Origin: Nitrospirales bacterium
GTDB lineage: Bacteria; Nitrospirota; Nitrospiria; Nitrospirales; UBA8639
Reading direction: 5' to 3'
Assembly (NCBI GenBank): GCA_029261275.1
Contig: JAJDBR010000106.1
Location: 1-40,342, forward strand
DNA length: 40,342 nt
The notes beneath the pieces are model-generated. The model did no database searches, had not been told where the DNA came from, and saw only the letters and a list, made by a program, of their open reading frames with translations. The translations under genes were made by a program, and so were the position numbers. The stretch's first letter is position 1. Every line of letters begins with the position of its first letter. This document shows positions 26,476 through 35,148 of the stretch, in pieces.

Positions 26476-28131
26476 TCAATGCTTGAGCTGGCGTTGCTCC
26501 ACGATGGCTTGATAATGATGATGGACGCTCTCAGTGTGTTGACGATAAGACGATAGTAACCCTTCAGCAGTTTGTTTAACTGTTTCCCTTTTGGGGTATC
26601 CCAATCTTATCGCACATTTGGCGATCTCCTCAGTTTTAGAAGGCAGAAGATGTGTTTGGAGTTCATGAACCATTTGAATTTTATTTTCGAGATTTCTCAA
26701 AAATATATACGAGGCCTTGAGTTGTTTCATGGCCCCAATTTTTAATTTCCCAACTCGCATTAATTTCATCAAACTTTTCAGTGTCTGGCGATCACGAATG
26801 ATTGGATACCGATAGCCCCACCGCAGCTGGAGGCCTTGCACAATAAATTCAATTTCACGAATGCCACCGATTCCCAATTTGACATTGCGTTCGAGTTCTC
26901 CTCGACGAGTTATCTTGGAGACCATTTGCGCGCGAAGACCATGAATGGCGGTCAATACCTGAGGGGCCATTTCTCTTGTCCCATACACAAACTGGTTGAG
27001 CGTCTTAATGAAAGATTGCCCAATCCGAAGATCGCCGGCAATGGGCTTGGCTTTTAAAAACGCTAATCGTTCCCAGGTCCGTCCCCGCGATTCATAATAT
27101 TGACAGGCATCTTCCACGGAACAGGCCAAGGGACCCACTTGTCCTTCAGGACGCAATCGCATGTCCACTCGAAATAAGGCCCCCTCGGAAGTGGAGACGG
27201 ACAACACGTTCGTGAGTTCCCTCGCTACCGCATGGAAATAGTCTGTGCCTGAAAGAGCCTTCTGCCCTGTACCAGCATTCGTCATTTGTTGCGAATCCTG
27301 AAACACATAGATGAGATCCACATCCGAACTATAATTGAGTTCACAGCCACCCAGTTTTCCCATGGCCAGCACCGAAAAGCCTATTCGATGTTTCGCCTGC
27401 GTTGAGATTGGAGGACCCCAGTTTCCATGCTGACGCTGAAGGTCTTGATCAACCAGTTCATAGGCTGCTTGAATCACCGCTGCCGCCAAATCTGACAGCA
27501 CCGAATAGGTTTCAATGGGCGTGGCAATACCCAGAAGATCCCGAATGCCTAGACGAAGCATTTCCCGTCGTTTTACCCTTCGCAAGGCTTCGCACTTGAC
27601 CTCATAACTTTTCACGGCTGTCAACGCCGTGTGGACAGCTCCCTTCAGATGGGTACTCGTTTGTCGGCGAACGAGAACTCGATCATCTTCGATCCAATAC
27701 ACCAATAAGGGATCTCGGATCAAGGTCTGGGCCATCGACGGGCTGTTCCCAAATACGGTTCCGAGTACCTCAATAATATGGGGCACATTCGACAAATATT
27801 GAAACAGTTGCAGACGATGAATCCCCGAGTCCACATAACGTTCCCATTCATTCAAGGCCTGATCAGGATCGGCGGTCTGTGACACACTAGAAAGTAGGCT
27901 AGGCAGAATGTTCGCAAGAGCTTTGCGAGTATTGGGCTCCCCTGCCATGGCCTGAAGATTGTGGTCGGCTCGTTTCCAATCCTGAATGCCATAGGCTTGG
28001 AGCAGTCGAGCGACTTCGGTCGAAGCCAGGTCCTTCGCGAGTAAAATCGTTGTGGGATCAGGCAACTGAGGTCGCGTCACCTTTTTTCTGCCTCCTGATT
28101 TTTGGGAAAGGTGTTGAGTAGAAGATTTCAT
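26476..28131 (-). CDS. GlnE-like protein, adenylyl-removase (AR) type half
   Basis: 551 residues equal to one half of a normal GlnE. Motifs match the AR half of the E. coli enzyme: AMGKLGGCELNYSSDVDLIY with the metal-binding D270 and D272, then FRVDMRLRPEGQVGPL, and LGIGGIREIEFIVQGLQLRW. In GlnE the AR half removes AMP from glutamine synthetase by phosphorolysis when nitrogen is scarce. The AT-type half is encoded divergently 67 bases away, and glnA lies beyond it. The -10 element of its promoter is so close to the ATG (28131) that the leader would be about five bases; an in-frame TAA inside the -10 excludes an earlier start. Domain type is from motif comparison; activity is inferred. Confidence 0.85.
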   Translation of the reverse strand: MKSSTQHLSQKSGGRKKVTRPQLPDPTTILLAKDLASTEVARLLQAYGIQDWKRADHNLQAMAGEPNTRKALANILPSLLSSVSQTADPDQALNEWERYVDSGIHRLQLFQYLSNVPHIIEVLGTVFGNSPSMAQTLIRDPLLVYWIEDDRVLVRRQTSTHLKGAVHTALTAVKSYEVKCEALRRVKRREMLRLGIRDLLGIATPIETYSVLSDLAAAVIQAAYELVDQDLQRQHGNWGPPISTQAKHRIGFSVLAMGKLGGCELNYSSDVDLIYVFQDSQQMTNAGTGQKALSGTDYFHAVARELTNVLSVSTSEGALFRVDMRLRPEGQVGPLACSVEDACQYYESRGRTWERLAFLKAKPIAGDLRIGQSFIKTLNQFVYGTREMAPQVLTAIHGLRAQMVSKITRRGELERNVKLGIGGIREIEFIVQGLQLRWGYRYPIIRDRQTLKSLMKLMRVGKLKIGAMKQLKASYIFLRNLENKIQMVHELQTHLLPSKTEEIAKCAIRLGYPKRETVKQTAEGLLSSYRQHTESVHHHYQAIVEQRQLKH

Positions 28132-28142
28132 GAAGAAAAGAA

Positions 28143-28193
28143 ATTATACGAGACCGAACCACACCTTACAATGCTATGAAATTTGAGTATACT
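28143..28193. promoter_or_regulatory. Divergent promoter pair sharing one -35 element
   Basis: Minus strand: TTGTAA (28171-28166), 17 bases, perfect TATAAT (28148-28143). Plus strand: CTTACA (28165-28170), 17 bases, TATACT (28188-28193). The two -35 hexamers overlap by five bases, so only one polymerase should bind at a time. Transcription would begin about five bases before the AR gene and almost at the ATG of the AT gene. Confidence 0.65.
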
Positions 28194-28198
28194 CCACG

Positions 28199-30460
28199 AT
28201 GATGAATTCTTCAGCTTTACTCGAACAGATTCAACACCGCGCCTCACATCTCCCCATCTCGCTAGCGAAAGATTTCCTTGCCAAGATGGACCAGGATTAT
28301 TTCGAGCAATTCCCTCTCGACACCATTCTTCAACATCTTGATCTAACCGCTCAGCTCACCTTCGCCTCTCCCTGTTCGGTGACCATCGCTCCCCTGTCCT
28401 CCAAACAATATCAGGTACATGTGGTGGCCTATGATTATTTTTCAGAATTTGCCACATTCTGTGGCCTGTTGGCCTCCTTCGGTCTCGATATTCGCGAGGC
28501 CGCCATTTTCACGTCTCGAGAGACGCCGGTTTCATCAGGTCAAAAAATTCAAGCTTCCTCAAAACTCAACCCATGGACACGTGCTCCCCTCAAGCGCCCA
28601 GCTCAGGGTTTAACTCGAAAGTTCGCCGTAGATGTCTTTCGTGTTCAAGCGGTAAAAGGGTTTGCCTTCGACTCGTCCGCCCAACATGACTTCAAACAAC
28701 ACTTGCATGCCCTGCTGCGATTGCTCCAAAAAAATCAGGTGCGCCAAGCTCGACGACAGGTCAATCTCCGTCTCATTGAAAATCTTGGGAAAACTCCAAA
28801 AAAGACAGGAGATATCCTCCATCCTGTCCATATTACGTTTTCCAATCCCTCCTCTTCGCCAGACACCGTGTTGGATATTCGGTCAACCGACACACGGGCC
28901 TTTCTCTATGCATTTGCCAATGCCTTGGCCATGCGTGGCATTTACCTGGTCAAAGCCAAAATTGAAGTCAAAGACCACCAGGTCTTGAATCGACTCTATG
29001 TCCGAGGCCGTCAGGGCGGAAAAATTCAAAGCCAAGCAGAGCAGCAGGAACTCCGAACCGCAGCCGCACTCCTTAAAGAATTCACCTATTACTTAAGTTG
29101 GGCACCCGACCCTGGAAAAGCGCTCGATCATTTTGATCAATTCCTAGATCAGCTCTTGGAGCAACCCCAGAAGGCTTCGACGTTGAGCACTTTGGGGCAA
29201 GCCTCCACCATGGAACATCTCGCACAGTTGTTTGGCAGCAGTGATTATCTCTGGGAGGATTTACTGCGGCGGCAGCATGACAATCTTTTGCCCATGATGC
29301 GGCACTATCAAAAAGGCCCCTTGGTTCGCTCCAAATTCGTGTTGACCAAAACTCTTGAGAAACGGTTGCAGCAGGCCAAGACAGTCGCACAAAAAAAGAA
29401 GGCTCTGAACCAATTCAAGGACGAAGAACTGTTCCGAATTGACATGCGTCATCTTTTGGAAACCAGTTCACTTCATGATTTTTCTCACGCCCTCACAAAT
29501 TTAGCTGATGTGATTTTAGGGCAAGCACTCGAACAATCCTATCGTGTCATGAAGCCGAAAGGCTCGCGGACACCCCCACCTCCCATGGCCATTTTTGGAT
29601 TGGGGAAATTAGGTGGGGGCGAACTGGGTTATGCCTCAGACATTGAAATTCTTTTTGTCTATGATAACCCTGAGCCATCGAAAACCCGTCAAGCATCCAA
29701 AATCTCAGCTGATTTCTATGAACGATGGTCCCAGGAATTTCTTCAATGGATTGAAGCCAAGCAAGAAGGCATTTTCCATGTCGATACCCGACTGCGTCCG
29801 AATGGCGACAAAGGCACCTTGGCTAATTCGCTAGGAGAAATTCAACAGTATTACGATAGTCAGGGAAGGGCCGCAGCATTTGAACGACAAGCCTTCATTA
29901 AGCTCCGATTTGTGGCTGGCCATCGTGCCTTAGGAAAAGCCGTTGAATCCCATCGGAATCGCTTTGTCTACGGAGCTGAACCATGGGCCCTCCCAAGCGC
30001 TCTGTACCTTCGACAGCGACAAATGGCCGAACTCGTTCAGGCTGGCTCCACACATGTGAAGTATGGCGCTGGGGGATTACTGGATGTGGAATATCTGGTG
30101 CAATATCTTCAGCTCATTCATGGGCATCAGCACCCGTCCCTTCGCACACCGAATACCTTAGAGGCCATCGAGCACCTGTGCCATGCCTCCCTCCTCTCAT
30201 TATCTGAAAGGGAAACCCTACATGAGGATTACCTTTTTTTTCGACAATTGATTGATGGTTTGCGCATTGTGCGAGGGAATGCCAAAGACCTCGTTTTGCC
30301 GCCGTCAGGATCTGACGAAATGGTGTTTCTTGCTCGCCGGTTGGGAATGGGTTCCACGGATTGGCAGAAGAGTGCTCAAACATTTGAGCAGACGACCCTG
30401 GAACGAATGTCTATTATTCACGAACGTTTTCTGAAACATTTTCCACGAAATAATGCCTGA
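28199..30460 (+). CDS. GlnE-like protein, adenylyltransferase (AT) type half with ACT-like domains
   Basis: 753 residues. The N-terminal 290 hold two ACT-like regions, about 58-106 (VHVVAYDYFSEFATFCGLLA) and 222-270 (VLDIRSTDTRAFLYAFANAL), in the style of GlnD, where ACT domains sense glutamine. The C-terminal half matches the AT domain of GlnE: FGLGKLGGGELGYASDIEIL, FHVDTRLRPNGDKGTL and YGAGGLLDVEYLVQYLQL. AT adds AMP to glutamine synthetase. The catalytic pair usually reads D-x-D; here it is D481-I-E483. An in-frame TGA 13 bases before the ATG excludes an earlier start, and the promoter puts transcription at or next to the ATG, so the message looks leaderless. The stop codon lies inside the terminator shared with glnA. 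Confidence 0.85.
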   Translation: MMNSSALLEQIQHRASHLPISLAKDFLAKMDQDYFEQFPLDTILQHLDLTAQLTFASPCSVTIAPLSSKQYQVHVVAYDYFSEFATFCGLLASFGLDIREAAIFTSRETPVSSGQKIQASSKLNPWTRAPLKRPAQGLTRKFAVDVFRVQAVKGFAFDSSAQHDFKQHLHALLRLLQKNQVRQARRQVNLRLIENLGKTPKKTGDILHPVHITFSNPSSSPDTVLDIRSTDTRAFLYAFANALAMRGIYLVKAKIEVKDHQVLNRLYVRGRQGGKIQSQAEQQELRTAAALLKEFTYYLSWAPDPGKALDHFDQFLDQLLEQPQKASTLSTLGQASTMEHLAQLFGSSDYLWEDLLRRQHDNLLPMMRHYQKGPLVRSKFVLTKTLEKRLQQAKTVAQKKKALNQFKDEELFRIDMRHLLETSSLHDFSHALTNLADVILGQALEQSYRVMKPKGSRTPPPPMAIFGLGKLGGGELGYASDIEILFVYDNPEPSKTRQASKISADFYERWSQEFLQWIEAKQEGIFHVDTRLRPNGDKGTLANSLGEIQQYYDSQGRAAAFERQAFIKLRFVAGHRALGKAVESHRNRFVYGAEPWALPSALYLRQRQMAELVQAGSTHVKYGAGGLLDVEYLVQYLQLIHGHQHPSLRTPNTLEAIEHLCHASLLSLSERETLHEDYLFFRQLIDGLRIVRGNAKDLVLPPSGSDEMVFLARRLGMGSTDWQKSAQTFEQTTLERMSIIHERFLKHFPRNNA

Positions 30461-30536: not shown

Positions 30537-31946
30537 CTACACGTCGTAATACATGAAAAATTCATGGGGATGCGGTCTAAGACGCATCGGATCCACTTCA
30601 TTGTCTCGTTTATAGGAAATCCAAGCTTCGACTAAATCTTCAGTGAACACCCCGCCTTTCAGGAGAAATTCATAATCATTGGCCAAATTGTCTAACGCCT
30701 CATCTAAGCTAGATGGTAACGTCTGGATATTCCCTAATTCTTCCGGTTCTAAATCATAAAGGTTCTTGTCCATAGCTTCGCCAGGATCGATTTTATTTTG
30801 AATACCATCCAATCCCGCCATCAACATGGCACTAAAAGCCAAATACATATTGCACGAAGGATCTGGGAAGCGTACTTCAATGCGTTTCGCTTTTGGGCTG
30901 GGTGAATACATCGGAATCCGAATGGCTGCCGATCGGTTGCGACTAGAATAGGCTAACATCACAGGAGCCTCGAATCCTGGCACGAGCCGCTTATACGAAT
31001 TGGTCGTGGGATTCGTTAAGGCCGCCAAGGCTGGGCCATGCTTGATAATCCCACCAATATAATAGAGGCATTGTTGAGACACGCCGGCATAATCTTTCCC
31101 AGCAAATGAAGGCTTTCCACCTTTCCAAATACTTTGATGGGTGTGCATGCCTGTCCCATTATCACCAAAGACCGGCTTGGGCATAAACGTCGCCGTTTTC
31201 CCATGACGTCGAGCCACATTGCGCACAATGTATTTATACATCATCATTTGATCGGCCATTTTGACCAGGGTGTCGAAGCGGAGATCGATTTCGGCTTGCC
31301 CTGCCGTGGCCACTTCATGATGATGCTTTTCCACACGGATACCAGCTCGTTCCATTTCGCGACACATTTCTGATCGGATATCTTGTTGCGAATCGACCGG
31401 AGACACAGGGAAATAGCCTTCCTTATGTCGAGGACGCGATCCCAGATTTTCGCCATCTTTTCCTGAATTCCAAATCCCTTCTTCCGAATCGACGAAATAA
31501 TAGCCAGAGTGACTATTTTGTTCATAACTCACATGATCGAAAATAAAGAATTCGGCCTCCGGCCCCCAGTAGGAGGTATCTCCAATCTTCGTATGCTTGA
31601 GATATTGTTCGGCTCGCATGGCCACACCACGAGGATCCCGTTCATAGATGGTGCGAGTAATAGGATCTTGGACATTGGATACCATGCTCAGGGTTGGGAT
31701 CTCCGTGAACGGATCCATCCGTGCTGTATTAGGATCCGGCACCACCAACATGTCACTGTTTTGGATGGCTTTCCACCCACGAATGGAGGAACCATCAAAT
31801 CCTGATCCTTCTTTAAATAAGTCGAGGGATAATTCGGAGGTAGGAATAGAAAAATGCTGCCATGTTCCAACCAAATCGATAAATTTTAGGTCGACCATTT
31901 CGACCTTGTTCTTCTTGGCAAAATCCAACACTTCTTTCGGGGTCAT
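30537..31946 (-). CDS. glnA: Glutamine synthetase type I
   Basis: 469 residues, the length of the bacterial dodecameric GSI-beta enzyme. It joins ammonium to glutamate with ATP. Visible blocks: [20 protein letters not shown], the metal-site [10 protein letters not shown], the ATP-site region [13 protein letters not shown], the substrate-site [20 protein letters not shown] and the C-terminal NLYDLEPEE. The last contains the tyrosine (Tyr397 in the E. coli enzyme) that GlnE adenylylates, so the target for the neighbouring split GlnE is present. GAAGGAGG precedes the ATG. It is the last gene of the porin-amtB-glnB-amtB-glnA run. No sigma54 -24/-12 pattern was found in the 85 bases upstream. Confidence 0.98.
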
Positions 31947-32031: not shown

Positions 32032-33339
32032 TTAGGAATAGGCTCGTTCACTGTGCTGACTAAGGTCCAAGCCCATTTCTTCATCCTGAGGTGATATACG
32101 AAGTCCAATCGTAAGATCAATAATTTTCAGGATGATATAGGTGCCCACCACCGCAAACACTAAGGTTACCAAAGCAAGAAAGACTTGTATACCAAACTGC
32201 CCAGCATCCCCAAAAAACAAGCCGGTGGCCCCAATAGAGGCGAACAGGCCGGTCGCCAATATCCCAATAAAACCTCCAACGCCATGAATTCCGACGACAT
32301 CTAAGGAATCGTCATAGCCCAATTTCATTTTCCAGACCACGGCGATATAACACATCGTCCCGGCGACTAACCCAATAATGATGGCGGACATCGGCCCAAC
32401 AAAACCTGCTGCCGGGGTAATCGTAGCTAAGCCAGCAATAATCCCACTCGCAATTCCAAGAACAGTCGGTTTGCCTCGATGCACCCATTCAGCGCACATC
32501 CAGCTTAAGCCCCCCGCTGCCGCAGCAATATGGGTGGCAATAAAGGCCACTCCCGCACCTCCATTGGCCCCTAAGGCACTTCCGCCATTAAATCCAAACC
32601 ATCCGAACCACAACAGACCAGTCCCCAACACAGTCATGGGTAAATTATGCGGTGGCATAGGTTCTTTTCCAAACCCTTTGCGAGGACCTAACATCATGGC
32701 GCAAACCAAGGCCCCAAAGCCTGAACTGATATGCACAACAGCCCCTCCCGCAAAATCCAACGCACCCATTTGAGATAACCAACCTCCGCCCCACACCCAA
32801 TGAGCTAAAGGCGAATAAATACATAGAGACCATAAAACTGAAAATGCAAGTAACGCTTTAAAATTCATTCGTTCAGCAACCGCTCCCGTGATCAGTGCAA
32901 CAGTTATCGCAGCAAACATGAGCTGAAACACCATGAAGACTTGATGAGGAATCGTTGAGGCATACACAGGGCTTGGATCAGAACCCACGCCTTGCAACCC
33001 AATCCACTCCAAGCTTCCAATGACGCCGCCCACATCAGGACCGAAGGCCAAGCTATATCCACAAATGACCCAAACCAGAGTAATCAAACAGAGAATGACG
33101 GCCGTATGCATGATGGTGCCTAGGACGTTTTTACTGCGAACAAGTCCGCCATAGAATAAGGCCAACCCGGGAAGCATCATGCACAACACCAAGGCGGAGG
33201 ACATTAAAATCCAGGCTGTATCACCTGTATCAATGGCCAGCACAGTGTCTTCCTCAGCCAACGCTAACGACCACTCCCCCATGCCAACCATGATGGCGAC
33301 CAGGAGCCCCATCCTCATGAGCAAGTTGGATATCTTCAT
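32032..33339 (-). CDS. amtB: Ammonium transporter, AmtB type (copy 1)
   Basis: 435 residues: a cleavable signal peptide (about 1-28, ending ALAEED), then eleven expected membrane helices. Amt hallmarks: PGLALFYGGLVRSKNVLGTI at the first helices, LAHWVWGGGWL with the first pore histidine, DFAGGAVVHISSG, and DVVGIHGVGGFIG with the second pore histidine. The C-terminal cytoplasmic tail ends in LDLSQHSERAYS, the region that contacts PII protein. It conducts ammonium across the inner membrane. GAGGAGG precedes the ATG. It lies between glnB and glnA. The paralogue upstream differs clearly in sequence, so the pair is not a recent duplication. Confidence 0.96.
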   Translation of the reverse strand: MKISNLLMRMGLLVAIMVGMGEWSLALAEEDTVLAIDTGDTAWILMSSALVLCMMLPGLALFYGGLVRSKNVLGTIMHTAVILCLITLVWVICGYSLAFGPDVGGVIGSLEWIGLQGVGSDPSPVYASTIPHQVFMVFQLMFAAITVALITGAVAERMNFKALLAFSVLWSLCIYSPLAHWVWGGGWLSQMGALDFAGGAVVHISSGFGALVCAMMLGPRKGFGKEPMPPHNLPMTVLGTGLLWFGWFGFNGGSALGANGGAGVAFIATHIAAAAGGLSWMCAEWVHRGKPTVLGIASGIIAGLATITPAAGFVGPMSAIIIGLVAGTMCYIAVVWKMKLGYDDSLDVVGIHGVGGFIGILATGLFASIGATGLFFGDAGQFGIQVFLALVTLVFAVVGTYIILKIIDLTIGLRISPQDEEMGLDLSQHSERAYS

Positions 33340-33386
33340 TGTGCCTCCTCTACGTCATGACGTGGAAAAATCTGATGAATGAAAAA

Positions 33387-33746
<360 letters not shown>

Positions 33747-33846
33747 TTAAAAAACGATGGAAACATGATGAATGTGTGACCAATACGCGTCTTCATACAC
33801 ATGGTGTCTTCTTCCATTTGCCCACATAGGTATAGCATATCTGATT

Positions 33847-35148
33847 TCAACCATACGCTCGTTCGCTATGCTGCGTGAGATCGAGCCCTATGACTTCCTC
33901 TTCCTTACTCACTCGCAATCCAACAACCCCTTCCACAACTTTAAGGATCACAAATGTTCCCACACCAGCAAAGACCCATGTGGCCCCGACGCCAATAGCT
34001 TGAATAACGACTTGGCCAGGATTACCAAAAAAGAGTCCAGTGCCTCCACCAACACTCGCGAATAGTCCAGTGGCTAGGCCCCCCCACGTTCCACCGATTC
34101 CATGAATGCCTAAAACATCCAGCGCATCATCATAGCCCATCTTGTTTTTCAAAAAGACCCCTAGATAACACACAACCCCACCGCCGACCCCAATGAGAAT
34201 GGCCGAAACCGGCCCGACAAATCCTGCCGCAGGCGTAATGGCCACCAACCCAGCCACTGCGCCACTGGCTGCCCCGAGCATGGTTGGATTCCCTCGATAC
34301 CCCCATTCCACGCTCAGCCAAGCTAGCGCGCCAGCTGCGGCCGCTATTTGCGTGGCCACAAAGGCGCTGGCCGCAATACCATCGGCTGCTAAGGCACTCC
34401 CAGCATTAAACCCAAACCATCCCACCCACAATAATCCTGCACCAATCACCGTAAACGGAAGGCTGTGAGGACTCATATTATCCGTCCCATATCCATTCCG
34501 TTTTCCTAACACGAGGGCACAGACTAACGCAGCGACACCAGAACTGATATGCACAACCGTGCCGCCCGCAAAATCTAAATCTCCCAGACCCGCAAGCCAG
34601 CCGCCCCCCCACACCCAATGCGCCAATGGAGCATAAATACAGGTGACCCATAACACAGCAAACAGCACAAAGGCCGAAAACTTCATGCGCTCAGCGATCG
34701 CTCCACTTATTAAGGCCACGGTAATGCCGGCAAACATCAACTGAAAAACCATGAAAGCTAAATGCGGAATCGTCGAGCCTTCGGAAGGTTCAGGACCGAC
34801 GCCCGTTAATCCCACGAAGTCCAAGTTGCCAATCATTCCCCCAACATCGGGGCCGAATGCCAGACTATACCCCCAAAACACCCACACCACACTGACGAGA
34901 CAAATCGCAATAAAACTATGCATCATCGTACTCAACACATTTTTACTACGGACCATCCCCCCATAAAACAGCGCCAACCCGGGAACAATCATAGCCAGGA
35001 CCAGAGCCGAGGAGGTTAACACCCAACCCGTATCACCAGCATTTACAAGCGAACCTTCTTGAGCAAATGCAGAACTAATTGATTGTACAGATAAAATGAA
35101 AAACCCGAAAAAGCTTAAACCTATCTTGCGAAATTTATATGTGAACAT
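33847..35148 (-). CDS. amtB: Ammonium transporter, AmtB type (copy 2)
   Basis: 433 residues with a signal peptide (about 1-30, ending SSAFAQEG) and the Amt fold. Key blocks: PGLALFYGGMVRSKNVLSTM, LAHWVWGGGWLAGLG, DFAGGTVVHISSG, DVLGIHGIGGTWGGLATGLF with the second pore histidine, and a tail LDLTQHSERAYG. It shares layout and most motifs with copy 1 but differs in many positions, including the loop after residue 110 (GVGPEPSEGSTIP). AGGGGA precedes the ATG. It starts 27 bases after the porin stop and is followed by glnB, so co-transcription is likely. Two Amt proteins around one PII gene may serve different ammonium ranges; that is inference. Confidence 0.96.
   Translation of the reverse strand: MFTYKFRKIGLSFFGFFILSVQSISSAFAQEGSLVNAGDTGWVLTSSALVLAMIVPGLALFYGGMVRSKNVLSTMMHSFIAICLVSVVWVFWGYSLAFGPDVGGMIGNLDFVGLTGVGPEPSEGSTIPHLAFMVFQLMFAGITVALISGAIAERMKFSAFVLFAVLWVTCIYAPLAHWVWGGGWLAGLGDLDFAGGTVVHISSGVAALVCALVLGKRNGYGTDNMSPHSLPFTVIGAGLLWVGWFGFNAGSALAADGIAASAFVATQIAAAAGALAWLSVEWGYRGNPTMLGAASGAVAGLVAITPAAGFVGPVSAILIGVGGGVVCYLGVFLKNKMGYDDALDVLGIHGIGGTWGGLATGLFASVGGGTGLFFGNPGQVVIQAIGVGATWVFAGVGTFVILKVVEGVVGLRVSKEEEVIGLDLTQHSERAYG

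Follow-up and report, generated by a model that had tools for sequence, protein, structure and literature searches.

The window analyzed here is the whole stretch of 40,342 nucleotides of contig JAJDBR010000106.1 from a Nitrospirales bacterium (assembly GCA_029261275.1), and this study concerns two adjacent genes in it that resemble the two halves of GlnE, the enzyme that modifies glutamine synthetase (GS). In E. coli GlnE, the N-terminal half is described as deAMPylating and the C-terminal half as AMPylating (PMC12409994); we refer to these as the deadenylylase (AR) and adenylyltransferase (AT) halves. As an initial annotation of the locus had indicated, two open reading frames are present in divergent orientation, one on the minus strand (26476-28131; 551 residues) and one on the plus strand (28199-30460; 753 residues), with ATG start codons that are 67 bp apart. 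The minus protein, an AR-type GlnE half and predicted GS-AMP deadenylylase according to Pfam, phylogeny and the NCBIfam GlnE models, contains PF03710 (residues 122-375) and PF08335 (residues 411-543), with the catalytic acids D270-x-D272 encoded at 27316-27324 and a third acid, D323, at 27163-27165. The plus protein is an ACT-ACT-AT fusion, as judged from Pfam, NCBIfam and AlphaFold2. It begins with a helical linker (residues 1-52; 28199-28354) that is GlnD-like from residue 23 and is comparable to the linker preceding GlnD ACT1, based on the start of the TIGR01693 match, the alignment and the modelled helices. This is followed by ACT1 (residues 59-177; 28373-28729; AlphaFold2 and alignment to GlnD), which includes a disordered loop at about residues 106-141, and by ACT2 (residues 211-299; 28829-29095; AlphaFold2 and GlnD profiles). 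The AT-type half then comprises a PF03710 nucleotidyltransferase domain (residues 339-583; 29213-29947), which structurally matches 1v4a and 3k7d, and a PF08335 helical domain (residues 618-743; 30050-30427). Its catalytic residues D481-x-E483 are encoded at 29639-29647, with a third acid, D529, at 29783-29785.

Each of the two proteins contains one PF03710 and one PF08335 domain above the Pfam cut-offs (E-values from 1e-12 to 1e-65), which is well outside what chance would give. The NCBIfam GlnE models also match both proteins, with scores that stay below the whole-protein cut-offs (at best 415.7 bits versus 724, and 338.9 versus 487). The profile searches thus place both proteins among the GlnE families and, in addition, residues 23-288 of the plus protein match the GlnD model TIGR01693. 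Another full-length glnE, which the initial annotation had named as evidence that would speak against a divided enzyme, was not encountered, as a PF03710 search of the whole source genome (90.3% complete, 283 contigs) returned the minus and plus genes only and no third or fused PF03710 gene; given the situation in the relatives, it is unlikely that a further glnE was missed. A full separate GlnD is encoded elsewhere in this genome (contig C121). The presence of a divided GlnE with one ACT-fused half, located on opposite strands, is hereby confirmed.

The same arrangement recurs among relatives. We counted PF03710 matches by hand in 59 relatives, including the source genome, and found a strong AR-type match together with a weaker plus-type match in 45, a plus-type match only in 3, only a weak match of the GlnD kind in 9 and none in 2; a frame holding both halves was not seen in any of these 59. 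A scan of genome contigs yielded 80 loci, all labelled Nitrospirota or Nitrospira except for one labelled Nitrosospira. The two halves were adjacent and always divergent at 74 of these loci; five contigs lacked an AR half and one held a plus fragment only. Of the 88 class-level genomes in a survey that covered 245 genomes of the phylum, 80 had at least two PF03710 matches, whereas all 20 loci examined outside this class consisted of one fused GlnE frame without a match to the plus-ACT profile. This indicates that the division and the ACT fusion go with one class, which is Nitrospiria by its named members, and that its sister classes have the fused form. The divergent orientation is not universal in the class, since at four of five class-level loci outside the order (L201, L202, L203 and L205) the two genes are convergent, still being adjacent, and only the fifth is divergent. 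With regard to an ACT fusion outside the phylum, the GlnE matches in 30 plasmid records all start at query residue 338 or beyond; this sample is small and biased and no genome search was centred on another phylum, so that it does not establish absence elsewhere. Frames of about 785-837 residues with additional weak PF03710 matches were observed in three genomes of one genus, coded g4 (G022, G029 and G032, e.g. G032:C28:36905-37504).

To assign the two halves we relied on a careful tree of 66 GlnE halves, from which 26 of the 92 rows had been left out (L215, L216 and 11 other locus prefixes; in a quick tree the N- and C-halves of the actinobacterial rows L215 and L216 fall together). In the careful tree the minus proteins form one clade (support 100/100) that is nested within the N-halves of fused GlnE (100/99), and its sister group consists of the N-halves of L183 and L184 (95/87). 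The latter two loci (genomes G077 and G069, family f14) encode a fused GlnE of which the C-halves also stand apart, which makes them candidates for the form that preceded the split. The plus proteins likewise form one clade (100/100), which lies outside the N-half clade, between the N-halves and 17 C-halves; in the larger quick tree they join the C-halves with a support of 60. A recent lineage-specific duplication of one half is not supported, as plus and minus proteins never join in either tree, although no AU test was made. The catalytic motifs are consistent with both assignments, AR and AT. The residue preceding [YF]-x-S-D is N in all 19 minus proteins and all 27 N-halves, G in all 19 plus proteins, and N in only one of 27 C-halves, and the signature ELN-[YF]SSD-x-D, which is of the AR type, is borne by the minus protein. 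The AR-like motifs noted initially in the minus protein (ELNYSSDVDL and GGIREIEF) are indeed present, and both phylogeny and signature support, at the level of sequence, that it is an AR-type half. Its acids D270 and D272 are invariant in 25 of 25 relatives, and D481, E483 and D529 of the plus protein are each kept in 26 of 26. Throughout the larger set of plus proteins, D-x-E is found in 118 of 119, L073 being the exception that does not fit the pattern. The acid of the plus GG-x-x-D-x-E motif (D629 in the window) was observed to be replaced by Thr in 14 and by Ala in 2 of 128 open reading frames, L050 and L055 among them. The ratios of nonsynonymous to synonymous substitution rates (dN/dS), calculated from dN and dS for five genome pairs, range from about 0.11 to 0.27 for the ACT part, from 0.04 to 0.10 for the nucleotidyltransferase part and from 0.12 to 0.18 for AR, which indicates purifying selection on all three, with the nucleotidyltransferase part being the most constrained. 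At full length, the AlphaFold model of the plus protein (pLDDT 79.6) has structural matches to 1v4a and 3k7d.

The N-terminal region of the plus protein is related to the C-terminal end of GlnD. TIGR01693 matches residues 23-288 at profile positions 620-844 (E-value 3.9e-17), the NCBIfam GlnD models match the N-termini of all 26 plus relatives inspected, and the alignment to GlnD extends from the linker preceding the ACT domains through ACT2. The match is confined to these profile positions and does not include the GlnD nucleotidyltransferase and HD domains, and Pfam detected no HD domain. The Pfam cut-off for ACT is not reached by the plus protein of the window (best match PF24931, 15.8 bits versus 27). 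In an AlphaFold2 model of residues 1-305, built with 26 homologues, helices are followed by two ββαββα units (pLDDT 87.8, pTM 0.85), and Foldseek and VIA-align searches matched this N-terminus to the ACT domains of GDH180, aspartate kinase, threonine deaminase and CASTOR1. The ACT fold whose absence from residues 1-290 would have counted against the initial annotation is therefore predicted, with units at residues 59-177 and 211-299, and the two GlnD-type ACT regions proposed to precede the AT half are borne out by profiles and model alike. In a quick tree the 26 plus ACT regions group in one clade (support 99) that is separate from the GlnD rows and has a branch of 1.39, as expected from one old fusion. 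A recent capture of the ACT region from the organism's own GlnD is not supported, given that this clade stands apart from the GlnD rows.

Downstream of the plus gene, and all on the minus strand, lie genes for a type I GS (glnA; 30537-31946), an ammonium transporter (Amt, by Pfam; 32032-33339), the PII protein GlnB/GlnK (33387-33725; Tyr51 at 33573-33575) and a second ammonium transporter (33847-35148), the PII gene being flanked by the two transporter genes (32032-35148). This GlnA is encoded by the sole PF00120 gene found in the source genome, and it has kept the target tyrosine, as noted initially, at residue 397 (30756-30758); the target motif is also present at 20 neighbouring loci. A second, weaker PII-like protein (33 bits) is encoded in the source genome at G000:C42:1766-2056. 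The order clpB, AR, ACT-AT, glnA, amt, PII, amt is recurrent in the family coded f1. The 67-bp region between the divergent genes (28132-28198) contains back-to-back sigma-70-like matches, which are consensus matches only. The match on the plus strand ends five bases 5' of the plus ATG, so that the plus mRNA may have almost no leader or may start further in.

We also examined the other components of the cascade across the class. GlnD was searched for in 80 of the 88 class-level genomes (all except G239, G243, G246, G260, G262, G264, G272 and G274). It was above the cut-off in 62 of these, partial in 2 and absent from 15; G225 gave no match at all. In the 15 GlnD-less genomes the GlnD match comes from the ACT region of the plus protein. 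These genomes (G043, G046, G049, G051, G136, G142, G147, G150, G189, G193, G211, G218, G232, G250 and G256) belong to one genus (code g12) and are 93-99% complete, G189 being closed in one contig. All 15 have two PF03710 matches and PII with Tyr51 kept (L318 was not parsed in this check), and the GlnA tyrosine is kept in all 14 whose GlnA end is covered. The gap between the PII and GlnA genes is 91-94 bases in 12 of 14 GlnD-less genomes and 112 and 276 bases in the other two, whereas the two genes are about 2770 bases apart in G053 and G203, which have glnD in between. With PII and GlnA brought together in this way, GlnD has been lost cleanly and is not simply missing because of a gap. Ammonia monooxygenase was found in 11 of the 15 GlnD-less genomes compared to 6 of 40 others tested, and the loss of GlnD therefore seems to go with a comammox lineage. 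In pairs of GlnD-less genomes the ACT part has dN/dS values of 0.11-0.16 and the catalytic part values of 0.04-0.06, indicating that both are still under selection. Conversely, G281, G203, G216 (in pieces) and G278 have GlnD and no strong PF03710 match, in line with streamlined Great Lakes Nitrospira that are reported to lack glnE (PMC9239080). In these four genomes and in G225, GlnA is present with LYEL, LYDL or LYAL at the target site, which suggests that the tyrosine outlives the enzymes.

The explanation that we lean towards is that of a divided adenylyltransferase of which the AT half has its own amino-acid sensor, most likely for glutamine, with a signal that bypasses PII uridylylation. 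In this predicted scheme, the minus and plus genes would jointly perform the work of one GlnE, with putative activities of opposite direction: the minus protein would remove AMP from Tyr397 of GlnA and the plus protein would add it. The C-terminal end of GlnD, consisting of the linker and tandem ACT domains, behind which the AT half is fused, would serve as an integral effector domain. Under nitrogen-rich conditions the ACT pair would bind an amino acid, in all likelihood glutamine, and this would probably raise the AT activity, so that the glutamine signal would reach GS without PII uridylylation, while PII may still tune one or both halves. The GlnD-less genomes, which keep the pair, PII Tyr51 and GlnA, fit what one would expect if the AT half is a point of entry for glutamine. 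For the GlnD-less ammonia-oxidizing Nitrospira we tentatively suggest, as a possible though rather doubtful extension, that only one tier is left of the classical two-tier GlnD-PII-GlnE cascade, with glutamine sensing transferred from GlnD to the AT half, with the ACT-AT protein as the sole remaining GlnD-type glutamine sensor and with GS being switched off by glutamine without PII uridylylation.

Several observations weigh against this explanation. The first relates to the ligand. Glutamine sensing is attributed to the ACT domains of GlnD, and the ligand site of ACT domains is described as being marked by a first-loop glycine that hardly ever varies (PMC3173338). This glycine is kept in only 1 of 26 plus ACT1 domains and 3 of 26 plus ACT2 domains, and it is absent from the protein of the window, whereas GlnD proteins keep it in 52 of 55 ACT1 and 55 of 55 ACT2 domains (the GlnD rows L240 and L280, apparently wrongly picked frames, were excluded from this count and are still included in the ACT tree). 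The loss of the glycine is the main result opposing direct glutamine sensing, and it leaves glutamine as no more than a putative ligand of the plus ACT pair. The second relates to the AT identity. The AT-like motifs noted in the plus protein (ELGYASDIEI and GGLLDVEY) are present and the protein falls outside the AR clade, but the plus clade is not nested within the 17 C-halves (96/91) and has a long branch of 1.3. Moreover, all 19 plus rows have Glu as the second catalytic acid, where each of the 73 other rows has Asp, and the D-x-D that is found in all 27 C-halves of fused GlnE is missing from the plus protein. The proposed phylogeny of the halves assigns the minus protein to the AR type and places the plus protein outside it; the AT identity of the plus catalytic domain, for which this exclusion and the motifs argue, is the weaker of the two assignments. 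The wider nucleotidyltransferase superfamily pattern does allow D or E at the second acid. Thirdly, most class genomes keep GlnD (62 of 80 above the cut-off), which implies that the ACT fusion is not simply a replacement of GlnD. Finally, E. coli GlnE is said to respond to glutamine although it has no ACT domain, and direct glutamine input alone would therefore not be new. Because of the altered ligand loop and the D-x-E active site in particular, our confidence in a divided enzyme with its own sensor is only a little above even.

The alternative that survives best, and that we regard as possible even if it is not the one we would choose, is that GlnE is indeed split, and that the ACT pair senses another amino acid, or that it dimerizes or docks the AR half, PII or GlnA, rather than binding glutamine. 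Besides the loss of the ligand-loop glycine from both ACT domains, this would account for the conservation of the plus ACT loop in a clade-specific form, A-[YF]-D-Y-[FLY], with A77, D79 and Y80 being invariant, and for the long ACT branch outside all GlnD rows examined. On the other hand, all 26 N-termini match GlnD C-terminal profiles with no other ACT family above the cut-off, and ACT2 retains a D-[TS]-x-[AG]-F-L loop. It is improbable that the plus protein modifies Tyr51 of PII instead of GlnA and is a nucleotidyltransferase under ACT control that stands in for GlnD or supplements it. The plus protein does join the ACT end of GlnD to a nucleotidyltransferase, its Glu at the second acid differs from the GS-modifying halves, and Tyr51 is kept in all GlnD-less genomes, but PII proteins that never undergo uridylylation retain this tyrosine as well. 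Moreover, the catalytic domain of the plus protein is of the GlnE type (PF03710, 4e-44), and no AT half would remain, though the AR half, which bears no sign of lost function, and the GlnA tyrosine persist. Marginally less probable still is that the plus protein has no catalytic activity and only regulates the AR half, with GS being only deadenylylated or not adenylylated at all. The unusual D-x-E and the long branch would fit a dead AT half, but its three acids are fully kept, its nucleotidyltransferase part is the most constrained part, and without an AT half the AR half has no substrate. Lastly, a broken or misassembled glnE, or an annotation artefact that splits one gene in two, can be dismissed, since the genes are on opposite strands with full open frames and recur in many independent assemblies, including closed chromosomes.

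Compared to GlnE of E. coli (b3053; 1v4a, 3k7d), the Nitrospira pair has the same domain pair, catalytic acids and, as predicted substrate, a GS with the target tyrosine, with AR assigned by tree and motifs and AT less firmly. It differs in that GlnE is one chain, whereas here two genes on opposite strands are found with no fused central linker, and in that the AT half has a tandem ACT and a D-x-E active site. The engineered AT-N and AT-C fragments of E. coli GlnE from Jaggi et al. (1997) can reportedly act as separate polypeptides; unlike these, the division in Nitrospira is natural and ancient, and comes with a fused sensor. The plus protein resembles GlnD from the linker through both ACT domains and is unlike GlnD in that the ACT domains precede the catalytic domain and have mostly lost the ligand glycines. 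Without the GlnD catalytic and HD domains it is no GlnD, and each half is a GlnE relative, yet the one-chain and D-x-D features of GlnE are absent. Plant ACR proteins also have a GlnD-kind tandem ACT outside GlnD, and ACR11 is co-expressed with a GS gene; they differ in having no nucleotidyltransferase domain and in keeping the ligand-loop glycine (PMC3173338).

A literature search limited to open-licence papers returned no description of a divided or ACT-fused GlnE. In a review on comammox Nitrospira a figure legend names GlnA, GlnB and GlnD, and GlnE was not encountered in the text covered, which is most of section 6 (PMC6311188). Genome annotations may already contain names for a pair of this type, as two neighbouring N. 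moscoviensis genes, which may be the split pair, are named GlnEB (PMC6131200). Reversible adenylylation of GS is the textbook bicyclic cascade, and a natural parting of its two opposing activities, one of which has received the sensor of GlnD, would illustrate how a cascade of this kind can be rewired. Separate AR and AT proteins would also be ready-made for biochemistry, and the GlnD-less lineage offers a natural experiment on the need for the uridylylation tier. Nitrospira are major nitrite oxidizers and include complete ammonia oxidizers, and the present findings suggest a rewiring of glutamine control in this group of nitrifiers.

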